Translations under genes and position numbers: made by a program
Part shown: piece after piece, positions 4,853 to 22,033 of the stretch
Position numbering within the stretch: the stretch's first letter is position 1
How the letters are laid out: each line of letters begins with the position of its first letter
Notes under the pieces: model-generated
Databases searched by the model: none
Seen by the model: the letters and a program-made list of their open reading frames with translations, nothing else
What the model was told of the DNA's origin: nothing
DNA from: a virus
DNA: 42,522 nucleotides
Reading direction: 5' to 3' (one strand)
Virus record (IMG/VR): IMGVR_UViG_3300003691_000019
Location: 1-42,522 of that record

Positions 4853-5374
4853 ATGGAAGTATGGAAAGACATACAGGGCTACGAGGGTTATTACCAAGTT
4901 TCAAATTTAGGTAGGGTAAAGAGTCTAGAAAGGAAAGTTAAAAACTCAAAAAATTCTTTTAGAGTTGTAAAAGAAAAGGTGTTAAAACAGTCTGAAAAGA
5001 AAGAGGGATATTTAGATATATCCTTAACAATAAGCCAAAAAAGAAAACATTTTTACGTTCATAGATTGGTAGCTTCTCATTTTATAGGGGAACAAGAAAA
5101 AGGAATGGATGTAAACCATAAAAACGGAAACAAGAAAGATAATTGTGTTGAAAACCTAGAGTGGCTAACTAGAGCAGAAAACCACGCACACGCTTATAAT
5201 AAATTAAAAAGGTTTGGATCAAGAAGAAAACTTAATGAAGAAGATGTGTTTTTTATTAGACAAAATGCAAAAAAAGGAAATGGAGGTAATGTAAAAAAAC
5301 TTGCTAATATGTTTAATGTCACAACAGACACAATTAGAAATGTAGTAAATAGAAAATGGTATAATGAATATTAA
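4853..5374 (+). CDS. HNH homing endonuclease with NUMOD4 domain
   Basis: 173 residues from the ATG at 4853. The N-terminus MEVWKDIQGYEGYYQVSNLG is a classic NUMOD4 DNA-binding motif, followed by the HNH_3 nuclease core with VHRLVASHF, VNHKNGNKKDN and NLEWLTRAENHAHA (about residues 70-120). The C-terminal ~45 residues (LNEEDVFFIRQ...VKKLANMFNVTTDTIRNVVN) form a helix-turn-helix of the type that aids target recognition. Such genes are free-standing mobile elements that nick cognate phage DNA and spread by repair. Here it lies between the endolysin and a holin, directly behind a terminator, so it was probably inserted into the lysis cassette. A longer frame from GTG 4808 was rejected because it begins within the terminator. 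Confidence 0.88.
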   Translation: MEVWKDIQGYEGYYQVSNLGRVKSLERKVKNSKNSFRVVKEKVLKQSEKKEGYLDISLTISQKRKHFYVHRLVASHFIGEQEKGMDVNHKNGNKKDNCVENLEWLTRAENHAHAYNKLKRFGSRRKLNEEDVFFIRQNAKKGNGGNVKKLANMFNVTTDTIRNVVNRKWYNEY

Positions 5375-5900: not shown

Positions 5901-5908
5901 TATATTTG
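5901..5908 (+). promoter_or_regulatory. Promoter -7 box, Bacteroidota type
   Basis: TATATTTG matches the Bacteroidota -7 consensus TAnnTTTG and lies immediately after the holin stop. No good -33 TTTG is seen at the expected 17-23 nt upstream. The ATG 4 nt later is followed at once by a stop, so it would drive a short untranslated RNA ending at the terminator at 5965, if it is active. Confidence 0.3.
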
Positions 5909-5964
5909 AGCCATGTGATTCTGCTCTATTCTTGAGCGAGTTGGTTTTTTCATAATTGGTTTGG

Positions 5965-5995
5965 CGGTCAGGGTGGTTCCTGGCCGTTTTTTTTT
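5965..5995 (+). terminator. Strong intrinsic terminator between lysis and early modules
   Basis: CGGTCAGG (5965-5972) pairs with CCTGGCCG (5979-5986), 8 bp with one G.U, around the loop GTGGTT, followed by nine T (5987-5995). It is one of the few GC-rich spots here and marks the end of the late transcript before the early promoters. The stretch 5909-5964 between the last promoter box and this terminator contains no gene. Confidence 0.85.
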
Positions 5996-6014
5996 GCTTT
6001 CTTTTTTTATTCCC

Positions 6015-6032
6015 AATATATTTTTATATTTG
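6015..6032 (+). promoter_or_regulatory. Early promoter candidate
   Basis: The -7 box TATATTTG is at 6025-6032, overlapped by the motif ATATATTTTTATAT, which recurs before 6537 and near 13190. It directly follows the terminator at 5965 and precedes the first early genes by 21 nt. The -33 region is a T-rich tract without a clear TTTG. Confidence 0.5.
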
Positions 6033-18993: not shown

Positions 18994-19367
18994 TGGCAAG
19001 AAGCAAGAAAGATAATAAAGAGAGGTACGAAAAAGAAATACTAGAAACGATCAAGAAATACAACATACTTGATATAGTGTCTATTTTTGCTTTTTATAAG
19101 GGGTGCTGTAGGTCCACCTTTTACAATTACGGCTTGGACAGATTGGACAGTATTAAAAACGCTATTGATGATAATAAGGTTATTACTAGGCATAGTTTAA
19201 AAGGAAAATGGGCTAATTCAGATAACGCAACGCTTCAACTAGCCTTGTTTAAGTTGATTTGTTCAGAAGAAGAAAGAGATGCCTTGTCTATGCAGAAGGT
19301 AGATCACACTAGCAAGGGCGAAAAAATAAACATTCCTATTTCAGCTTGGAAGAAAGAAGATGAGTAA
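18993..19367 (+). CDS. terS: Terminase small subunit (putative)
   Basis: 124 residues directly upstream of, and overlapping by one base, the large terminase. The N-terminal helices (ERYEKEILETIKKYNILDIVSIFAFY..CCRSTFYNYG) can form a helix-turn-helix; the later KGKWANSDNATLQLALFKLICSEEERDAL is the part most typical of Bacteroidota-phage small terminases. It would recognise the packaging site and regulate the large subunit. Assignment rests on position and fold pattern. Confidence 0.72.
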   Translation: MARSKKDNKERYEKEILETIKKYNILDIVSIFAFYKGCCRSTFYNYGLDRLDSIKNAIDDNKVITRHSLKGKWANSDNATLQLALFKLICSEEERDALSMQKVDHTSKGEKINIPISAWKKEDE

Positions 19368-20578
19368 TGGTTACTCTTATTCCAAAGTTCAAACCAATGT
19401 ACTCAGATGGCTATCGGTACTGCCTTTGTACTGGTGGTCGAGGTAGTTCTAAATCCTTCCACGTTTCGGACTTCTTATTAAAGCTAACATACGAGCAAGG
19501 CCATGTAATACTGTTCACTCGTTACACTTTAACCTCAGCACATTTATCTATTATTCCAGAGTTCATTGAAAAGATAGAGCTGTATGGAGTAGAGGACAGC
19601 TTTGAGGTAACAAAGACTGAGATAGTAAACAAGCACACAGGAAGCAAGATAATATTCAAAGGGATTAGGACCAGCTCTGGAAACCAGACCGCAGCCCTAA
19701 AGTCTATTCAAGGTGTTACAACCTTTGTGCTAGATGAAGCAGAGGAATTGGTGGATGAAGAAATATTCGATAAGATCAACGAATCTGTAAGGAAGAAAGG
19801 AGTACAAAACAGAGTGATAATTGTGTTGAACCCTACTACTAAAGAGCATTGGATTTATAAGCGGTTTTTTGAGGATAAGATGGTAACTCCTGGAGAATGT
19901 ACCAAGCAAGACGATACTGTTTACATCCACACTACTTACTTAGATAACCTTCAAAACCTTTCGGAATCGTTTATAAAGGGTTTTAAAAGGCTAGAACAGG
20001 AGAACCCAAAGAAGTACGCTCATAGGGTAATGGGTGGATGGCTAGAGAAAGCAGATGGAGTTGTATTTGAAAATTGGTCTATTGGTAAGTTTGAAGAAGT
20101 CGGCCAAGTGATCTATGGGCAAGATTACGGTTATTCTCCAGACCCTACCACATTGATTAAGGTAAGCATTGACAAGCGCAGGAAGAAGATATTTATCAAA
20201 GAGTGCTTTGTAGAAAATAACCTTAGTACAGATGAGATAATAAGGCGTAATAAAGAGCATTGTGGCAAAGGGTTAATAATTGGTGATAGTGCAGAGCCTA
20301 GATTGATAAATGACATTAGAAAGCAAGGTGTTAATATCATTCCATGTACTAAAGGGGCTGGAAGTATTATAGCTGGAATAAACATAATGCTAGAGTACGA
20401 GCTTATTGTTGATCCAGATAGCAGAAATGTAGTGAAGGAATTAAACAACTATATCTACTCAGATAAGAAAAGCCAACTGGTTATTGATGACTATAATCAT
20501 ACGATTGATGCAGTTAGGTATAGCGTTTACCATCAATTAAGGAATCCGCATAGAGTTGGCCTTAGACAAAAAAACTAA
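19367..20578 (+). CDS. terL: Terminase large subunit
   Basis: 403 residues of the Terminase_3/XtmB type. Walker A is CTGGRGSSKS (21-30), Walker B TTFVLDEAEEL about 100 residues later, followed by the coupling motif region NPTTKEHW. The C-terminal RNase H-like nuclease shows YGQDYGYSPDPTTL, IIGDSAEP and a terminal HTIDAVRYSVYHQL supplying the acidic residues. It powers DNA translocation into the prohead and cuts the concatemer. Length is normal, and no intron or intein is present. Confidence 0.92.
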   Translation: MVTLIPKFKPMYSDGYRYCLCTGGRGSSKSFHVSDFLLKLTYEQGHVILFTRYTLTSAHLSIIPEFIEKIELYGVEDSFEVTKTEIVNKHTGSKIIFKGIRTSSGNQTAALKSIQGVTTFVLDEAEELVDEEIFDKINESVRKKGVQNRVIIVLNPTTKEHWIYKRFFEDKMVTPGECTKQDDTVYIHTTYLDNLQNLSESFIKGFKRLEQENPKKYAHRVMGGWLEKADGVVFENWSIGKFEEVGQVIYGQDYGYSPDPTTLIKVSIDKRRKKIFIKECFVENNLSTDEIIRRNKEHCGKGLIIGDSAEPRLINDIRKQGVNIIPCTKGAGSIIAGINIMLEYELIVDPDSRNVVKELNNYIYSDKKSQLVIDDYNHTIDAVRYSVYHQLRNPHRVGLRQKN

Positions 20579-20836: not shown

Positions 20837-20858
20837 CAACCAGAAAGCACTACGAGCG

Positions 20859-20977
20859 CAGATCAAAGTGATTTGCCCTTCTAGTAAGTCGTTCTTTTAA
20901 CTAGCGGAAGAGAAAAACGCTAGGGTTTAAATTGGTAAGAAGGGTCAGGATAGGTGAAAGTTTCTTGGCCCTTTTTT
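20859..20977 (+). ncRNA. Structured intergenic RNA ending in a terminator
   Basis: Between the stop at 20836 and the next start at 20991 are three hairpins: CAGATCA/TGATTTG with triloop AAG (20859-20875), CTAGCG/CGCTAG (20901-20906 with 20918-20923) and the terminator at 20940. CCCTTCT (20876-20882) is also exactly complementary to AGAAGGG (20938-20944), the left side of the terminator, so a competing anti-terminator pairing is possible. It could be a small RNA or a controlled 3' end. Confidence 0.4.
20940..20977 (+). terminator. Intrinsic terminator after the DUF736-like gene
   Basis: AAGGGTCAGG (20940-20949) pairs with CTTGGCCCTT (20964-20973), ten pairs with two G.U, around a 14-nt loop, and the T tract 20972-20977 follows. 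It should end the packaging transcript. Confidence 0.75.
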
Positions 20978-20979
20978 AT

Positions 20980-20987
20980 TACCTTTA
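20980..20987 (+). promoter_or_regulatory. -7-like box three nt before a start codon
   Basis: TACCTTTA sits right after the terminator T tract and ends 3 nt before the ATG at 20991. Geometry like 10365, 12826 and 18083. The -33 region overlaps the terminator. Confidence 0.33.
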
Positions 20988-21128: not shown

Positions 21129-21253
21129 CCTATCAAGAAGTAATAGAAGCTCTGCATGAGCTAGGCTGGGAAGATTTAGACAAGTTGAACTCAGAAGCGG
21201 TGGAGTTGATAGAAGATGTTATTTTAGTAATGAACCAAAACAAAAAGAGATGA
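21125..21253 (+). CDS. Hypothetical protein (42 aa)
   Basis: 42 residues, acidic and helical (MTYQEVIEALHELGWEDLDK..SEAVELIEDVILVM). Overlaps both neighbours by ATGA, so three small genes here form a coupled set. Confidence 0.5.
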   Translation: MTYQEVIEALHELGWEDLDKLNSEAVELIEDVILVMNQNKKR

Positions 21254-21486
21254 GTTGGAACCATAGATTATTAGCACACAAAGATGGAGAAGATTATTAT
21301 TATCAAATCCATGAAGTTTATTATGATGAAAAAGGAAAACCTAACGGATATACAGAACGTGGTATATCGGTTGGTGGCGATAACTTAGAAGGTGTTAATT
21401 GGGTTTTAGATAGGATGCGAGAGTGTTTAAATAAACCCATATTGTCTGTGGACAACTTTCCAAAAGAACATAAAGAATCAAAATAA
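21250..21486 (+). CDS. Conserved small phage protein (78 aa)
   Basis: 78 residues: MSWNHRLLAHKDGEDYYYQIHEVYYDEKGKPNGYTER, then a helix WVLDRMRECLNKPIL. The MSWNYR....DGE..Y.I.EVYYD..G.P pattern is shared by small proteins of many phages and plasmids; function unknown. It ends just before the small-RNA promoter at 21491. Confidence 0.65.
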   Translation: MSWNHRLLAHKDGEDYYYQIHEVYYDEKGKPNGYTERGISVGGDNLEGVNWVLDRMRECLNKPILSVDNFPKEHKESK

Positions 21487-21490
21487 TTTA

Positions 21491-21498
21491 TATCTTTG
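21491..21498 (+). promoter_or_regulatory. Promoter -7 box of the small RNA
   Basis: TATCTTTG is a full match to TAnnTTTG and ends 3 nt before the first hairpin at 21502, where transcription would be expected to start. No TTTG was found at the usual -33 spacing. Confidence 0.45.
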
Positions 21499-21501
21499 AA
21501 G

Positions 21502-21602
21502 TGTTCGTAATGGAGGTATGAACAGATAAAGACATTATACGGGGAAGGCACTTCTCCAGAAATTAAGTCCTATGTACCTCCATTGCATAGGGCTTTTTTT
21601 TT
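21502..21602 (+). ncRNA. Candidate ~100-nt small RNA with kissing loops (module B)
   Basis: Three hairpins. H1: TGTTCGTA (21502-21509) with TATGAACA (21517-21524), 8 bp with one G.U, loop ATGGAGG. H2: GGGGAAG (21541-21547) with CTTCTCC (21551-21557), loop GCA. H3 is the terminator with loop CCTCCAT (21577-21583). The H1 and H3 loops are complementary over all seven bases, and the complementarity extends to ten counting closing bases (21509-21518 with 21575-21584). No frame of useful length is present; GGAGGTATG would open a 3-codon peptide only. It sits between a promoter box and a T tract, so an independent RNA is likely. Confidence 0.55.
21567..21602 (+). terminator. Terminator of the small RNA
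   Basis: GTCCTATGTA (21567-21576) pairs with TTGCATAGGGC (21584-21593, two G.U), leaving the 7-nt loop CCTCCAT, followed by nine T (21594-21602). Confidence 0.8.
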
Positions 21603-21631
21603 GCACTTAAACGAACAGACATACAAGGCCG

Positions 21632-21823
21632 TTGCTGTTCAGACTCCATACAGCTTTAACAAAAAGGATTAAAACAAACGGCAACCAGTCAGAAAAGACG
21701 AAGTTAGAACTTGTGAAGTGTATGCAATGTCCAATCCCCGACAACATACGACTTGAAGCAATAAGCACAAGCCTAACTTATGACCCTAGACGCTGTAATG
21801 TCAAGGCGACCTGTAAAAGGTAA
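21632..21823 (+). CDS. Doubtful small Cys-containing frame (63 aa)
   Basis: A frame from TTG 21632 with four Cys in KCMQCPIPD and RRCNVKATCKR, which could bind zinc. There is no ATG before position 21719 (MQCPIPD), no leader like those of other genes, and codon use is more GC-rich than the neighbours. It lies between two structured RNA regions and may simply be non-coding. Confidence 0.25.
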   Translation: MLFRLHTALTKRIKTNGNQSEKTKLELVKCMQCPIPDNIRLEAISTSLTYDPRRCNVKATCKR

Positions 21824-21842
21824 GGATGGGAATTGCTGATTA

Positions 21843-21926
21843 AGGCTGAGGTTCGATCTAAATAACTCTTATTTTATCGGATCAGGTTCTTGAGTACTTT
21901 CAAGGATATAAGGGGAACTATAGCCT
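21843..21926 (+). other. Predicted three-way-junction fold
   Basis: AGGCT and GTTC (21843-21847, 21851-21854) pair with GAAC and AGCCT (21915-21918, 21922-21926) across a 3x3 internal loop. Inside lie GATC-AAATAA/TTATTT-GATC (21855-21883) and TTCTTGA/TCAAGGA (21887-21893 with 21900-21906). No gene explains the region. It could be an RNA leader or a DNA site; hand-drawn folds in AT-rich DNA are weak evidence. Confidence 0.3.
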
Positions 21927-21930
21927 AAAC

Positions 21931-21960
21931 TTAGCCATTAAATAAAATTTAGTACATTTG
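21931..21960 (+). promoter_or_regulatory. Promoter of the head-gene operon
   Basis: TTAG (21931-21934) and TACATTTG (21953-21960) with 18-nt spacing; the -7 box is a full TAnnTTTG match. It lies 73 nt before the first structural gene at 22034. Confidence 0.5.
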
Positions 21961-22033
21961 GAGTAGAGATATTCAATGACGGGTAGTTGATTCTCAATAA
22001 TTAACAGAATAAAAAACTCTAATAATTTAGATT

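Follow-up and report, generated by a model that had tools for sequence, protein, structure and literature searches.

In the ColE1 RNAI/RNAII system, two RNAs are brought into contact by kissing loops of 7 nt that are fully paired. The late leader of lambda-type phages consists of pR', the 6S RNA and tR', and the phage phi29 has a packaging RNA of about 100 nt in which two loops are complementary to each other. Short phage RNAs also include sar of P22, c4 of P1/P7 and OOP of lambda, and of these sar and c4 are functionally tied to ant (PMC12197685). Small RNAs of Bacteroidota phages are hardly described as far as searches show, and in open-access papers an RNA of the kind considered here was not found for these phages.

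The stretch of DNA analysed here (the window; 42,522 nucleotides of IMGVR_UViG_3300003691_000019) is a 42.5-kb IMG/VR contig of a tailed phage. Its head and portal proteins belong to a family common to phages of Flavobacterium, Croceibacter, Elizabethkingia, Bacteroides, Parabacteroides and Alistipes, and the virus is one of Bacteroidota bacteria. A sequence-only reading of the window had noticed a -7 promoter box, a 3-nt gap, two hairpins (H1 and H2), a terminator hairpin (H3) and a T tract in this order, and each of these was located in the sequence and by RNAfold (Table 1). The putative RNA that they delimit represents a new small-RNA family with an unusual predicted pairing between the loops of the first hairpin and the terminator; it has two members so far, the second being a unit in another phage, L160 (IMGVR_UViG_3300028381_000029).

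Table 1. Positions in the window of the parts of the element and of neighbouring features
Feature	Position	Strand	Basis or remark
-7 promoter box TATCTTTG, Bacteroidota TAnnTTTG type	21491..21498	+	sequence; ATCTTT at same place in L160
H1, 8-bp hairpin with one G.U; loop ATGGAGG at 21510-21516	21502-21509/21517-21524	+	sequence, RNAfold
Linker AAAGACATT, single-stranded; candidate recognition site	21528..21536	+	identical in L160
H2, 7-bp hairpin with one G.U; triloop GCA	21541-21547/21551-21557	+	RNAfold
H3, terminator hairpin, 12 bp including two G.U; loop CCTCCAT at 21577-21583	21565-21576/21584-21595	+	
T tract of intrinsic terminator, nine T	21594..21602	+	sequence
AATGGAGGTA, 10-nt partner of 21575-21584	21509..21518	+	sequence
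TACCTCCATT, 10-nt partner of 21509-21518	21575..21584	+	sequence
Terminase, upstream of element	19367-20578		
78-aa ORF, phrog_21321, upstream of element	21250-21486		
Separate -7 box TACATTTG, between terminator and head gene	21953		
Head-protein gene, phrog_8193, downstream of element	from 22034		

The gap between the box and H1 is AAG. RNAfold returned exactly H1, H2 and H3 for the window element, at -32.5 kcal/mol with a small outer extension of H3, and the fold was more stable than expected (z = -4.06), no sequence among 200 shuffles being as stable. H3 was classed as an intrinsic terminator by its G+C-containing hairpin of 12 pairs and the T run directly 3' of it. The complementarity of the outer loops over seven bases was confirmed and extends beyond them to 10 nt, and the computed energy of the H1-H3 loop duplex is about -9.7 kcal/mol.

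The window was scanned for two hairpins at most 150 nt apart whose loops are complementary over 7 nt, and exactly one match was obtained. In 1,500 dinucleotide-preserving shuffles, such pairs arose at 0.047 per window with weak stems, at 0.0007 per window with both stems at H1 strength, and in 0 of the 1,500 when one stem had to approach H3 or a T-rich tail was required, all of these chance figures for loop complementarity being post hoc. Both strands of the related-phage loci (1.12 Mb) contained four weak loop-complementary cases, none of them terminator-like.

The box TATCTTTG at 21491-21498 agrees with the -7 box TAnnTTTG of the Bacteroidota sigma-ABfr promoter. The motif TANNTTTG occurs 56 times in the window against 57.8 expected, that is, at chance frequency, and the -7 box alone is weak evidence. 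Neither TTTG nor TTG was present at the -33 position of the window box; for Flavobacterium johnsoniae, a TAnnTTTG consensus is reported in which a -33 motif was not identified (PMC7366714). L160 has a full -33/-7 promoter, TTTTG-N19-TATCTTTA, with the last base of TATCTTTA off consensus. The chance frequency of the box would suit an ordinary terminator of the upstream operon, beside which the loop match and the -7 box are incidental, and such terminators are common just 5' of the head-gene promoter in relatives (found in several, including L003, L004, L006 and L011). We consider this improbable in view of the shuffle tests and of L160, which keeps both loops, the linker and the box in order.

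L160 was found with a gapped pattern of two 9-nt loop words applied to IMG/VR, which 13 stretches matched, a number that chance could give. Since the two loops were the search key, their identity in L160 is not independent evidence. The unit lies on the minus strand at about 2855-2972 (the same as L381 6148-6267) and consists of the ATCTTT box, H1 directly 3' of it with a TGGAGG loop, AAAGACATT at nearly the same distance from H1 as in the window, H2 with a triloop, and a terminator with a TGTACCTCCAT apex followed by a T tract. Its fold is likewise stable (z = -4.33), and it has a 10-nt complementarity, TATGGAGGTA/TACCTCCATA, equivalent to that of the window. H2 has its triloop at the same place and is longer and different in sequence. 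By dinucleotide-sampled L160 sequences, the chance that the upstream word and the linker word would both be shared was 0.00025, a figure that leaves hairpin, terminator and order uncounted. A model built from the window sequence alone scored L160 at 35 bits, with the next best match at 20.9 bits in the 349 kb searched. The latter, a candidate in L137, was rejected, its first hairpin lying inside a gene.

The stems differ between the two members and still pair. In H3, 4 of the 12 pairs differ, one of them on both sides (T-A to G-C); in H1, aligned by hand according to structure with one bulge, there are two double-sided changes (C-G to G-C and G-C to T-A) and a one-sided one. The compensatory changes thus include three double-sided ones, a small sample from a single homologue. 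The loops are identical and complementary in both phages, without covariation, and what seemed to be covariation at the base adjoining each loop was set aside, being forced by the closing pairs of the hairpins. A coding reading of the element was also rejected: ATG GAG GTA runs into a stop either immediately or two codons on, and the alignment gaps between the copies are not multiples of three. With the box, hairpin order, linker and loops kept and the H1 and H3 stems changed but still pairing, the folded phage RNA of about 100 nt that had been suggested is well supported; a conserved folded RNA is supported by these comparisons, and the RNA is probably a real molecule. The same observations bear on a DNA-level inverted repeat with operator half-sites in place of an RNA structure, which would account for ATGGAGGTA and TACCTCCAT just 3' of a promoter-like box in both phages. 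This is scarcely credible, given that the H1 and H3 stems covary around the repeats, that a T tract follows the second repeat in both phages, and that elsewhere in the window TGGAGGTA recurs exactly at 5281 and 15466, within listed ORF spans.

Further members were sought in several collections. No match at the gathering score was obtained in Rfam 15, where the best sub-threshold matches were far below it; an exact 22-mer scan of IMG/VR gave no match, and blastn of the element with its flanks against phage records gave nothing meaningful. A 20-base three-part pattern matched 87 IMG/VR stretches and 111 stretches of the genome collection, of which only the window and L160 were left after structure filtering. 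The covariance model found only generic terminators in about 1,190 sampled Bacteroidota genomes and nothing convincing in about 90 related phage records. Within the limits of the genome searches, the RNA appears to belong to phages.

Close relatives were picked by their head, portal and terminase proteins. The element was absent from the terminase-head interval of those closest by head protein (e.g. L097, L098, L002 and L016), including L097, whose head protein is 75% identical to that of the window; other sequence fills the site in these relatives. At the same site in L002 and L015/L016, a -7-like box is followed after about 90 nt by a terminator-like hairpin, and these were rejected as homologues since their sequence is unrelated. 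In L160, the unit is flanked by a 136-aa gene and an AntA/KilAC antirepressor gene, as against the phrog_21321 protein and the head gene in the window, and such differing neighbours suit a self-contained module. Upstream of the L160 unit is a probable major capsid protein of 334 aa, which adjoins a protease-like gene and had no match among phage records. The unit sits in a one-strand gene run that continues to glycosyltransferase-like and probable portal genes, as named from a reading of their sequences.

The main rival to a small-RNA gene is a promoter-leader-attenuator, in which the element would be a 5' leader whose terminator is sometimes read through into the next operon. We regard this as possible but rather unlikely, and say the same of its proposed mode, in which the H1 loop, by pairing with that of the terminator as it emerges, or a factor on H1 or the linker would tune read-through. 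The layout would be comparable to that of phage late promoters with a short, terminated RNA behind them. One of the two complementary loops belongs to the terminator itself, and late structural genes surround or directly follow the unit in both phages. In L160, about 25-35 nt separate the T tract from the start of the antirepressor gene and contain no -7 box, so that the gene needs read-through of the terminator, from the box of the unit or from an upstream promoter. In the window, by contrast, about 430 nt without a convincing ORF extend from the terminator to the head gene, which has its separate -7 box, and the downstream genes differ between the two phages. Moreover, the 10-nt loop pairing leaves 10 of the 12 terminator pairs of H3 intact and is thus not an obvious antiterminator.

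Other features were observed in the window and in related phages. The region at 21603-21950 (about 340 nt without a convincing ORF; G+C 0.39; fold z = -2.1) had no Rfam or phage match and is possibly another RNA or a packaging site. In many phages of the family (window, L002, L004, L006-L008, L012-L014, L098-L107 and L116-L148), the mRNA leader of the head gene (phrog_8193) has a short hairpin between the -7 box and the ATG, with a loop of about NA(A/C)GGG(A/T)NN (about 21974-21991 in the window). Across 30 matches, 100 of the 120 cells for its inner four pairs are paired; dealing 3' arms to other sequences gave a mean of 67 and a maximum of 83 in 2,000 shuffles, uncorrected for sequence kinship. 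This hairpin, one example of which had no Rfam match at the gathering score, seems to be a covarying cis-element. A conserved terminator-like element, GTTTATGGTTTCGGGGTTGTAACG...CGTTCGCCCCGTTTTTT, lies 5' of the head-gene promoter in L099-L108. The intergenic stretch at 20837-20985 of the window, after an SSB-like gene, contains hairpins nested in one another (CTAGCG...CGCTAG), with a strong terminator at about 20972, and is possibly another structured RNA. At 5901-5996, a -7 box TATATTTG at a gene end and, about 85 nt further on, a strong nine-T terminator were seen; this is the layout of the element without complementary loops, and the next -7 box is at 6025. The terminases of L015 (5241-7265) and L016 are encoded in a 674-aa frame; close to its end is an insertion that resembles an intein, part of it HNH-like.

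The H1 loop had also been likened to a Shine-Dalgarno (SD) sequence. This holds for the 6-nt core GGAGGT only, and Bacteroidota ribosomes scarcely use SD (PMC9976891). In another reading, one loop would mimic an SD (GGAGGU) and the other an anti-SD (ACCUCC); as separate recognition sites, they might act on the tail of 16S rRNA or on the few mRNAs that carry an SD, rpsU among them, and their complementarity to each other would follow from SD/anti-SD identity or mask both. Exact GGAGGT and ACCTCC cores are invariant in both members, and in Flavobacteriales, ribosomes that lack bS21 use an extended SD of rpsU (PMC9976891); the complementarity, at 10 nt, exceeds the SD core, and we judge such separate sites decidedly improbable. 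It is harder still to credit a mobile phage RNA in which the two mimics hide one another and, once released, act on the unusual way in which Bacteroidota start translation, through either the rpsU SD or the free 16S tail of ribosomes that lack bS21.

We give about an even chance to a phage small-RNA gene whose terminator loop kisses the first hairpin and whose product probably acts in trans. The sigma-ABfr-type -7 box would start an RNA of about 100 nt, which would fold into three hairpins and end at its own intrinsic terminator. The 7-nt apical loops of H1 and the terminator hairpin, complementary over all seven bases, suit a kissing complex, either within one RNA or between two copies, by which the 5' hairpin would be joined to that of the terminator. 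Loop pairing would make the RNA a closed, compact body in which the AAAGACAUU linker stays single-stranded, a likely recognition site. The RNA would probably act in trans on phage or host RNA or protein; a trans-acting structured RNA would be expected to form a self-contained unit, as is seen here in two phages whose neighbouring genes differ, and to keep its loops and linker constant while the stems vary. Target prediction at the gene starts of the phage itself gave nothing above shuffled background. We infer transcription from the box, the loop contact, action in trans and any target. As to a function through loop-loop contact, the complementary loops are compatible with it and the H1-H3 contact is likely; the contact cannot be shown by comparison because both loops are invariant, an invariance equally expected of two independent recognition sites. 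With two members, from phages that are otherwise unlike but share these loops, the family offers a concrete, testable RNA, and docking of the 5' hairpin on its own terminator would link folding, termination and stability in one short transcript.

Compared with the systems described above, the element resembles sar, c4 and OOP as a short phage RNA, and the L160 unit adjoins an antirepressor gene as sar and c4 are tied to ant (PMC12197685). It differs from these three in its hosts, in not being antisense to a neighbouring gene as far as seen, in having no Rfam match and in carrying its complementary loops within the same RNA. With lambda pR'-6S RNA-tR' it shares a promoter, a short RNA and a terminator near phage late genes, whereas no Q-like factor was identified and a second promoter box precedes the head gene of the window. 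Like the phi29 packaging RNA, it is about 100 nt long with two complementary loops and lies, in the window, near packaging genes; unlike it, it has no Rfam match, no indicated packaging role and loops of 7 nt, one of which belongs to a terminator. As in ColE1 RNAI/RNAII, two hairpins have 7-nt loops complementary over all seven bases, but the two loops of the element belong to a single transcript, one of them capping an intrinsic terminator.
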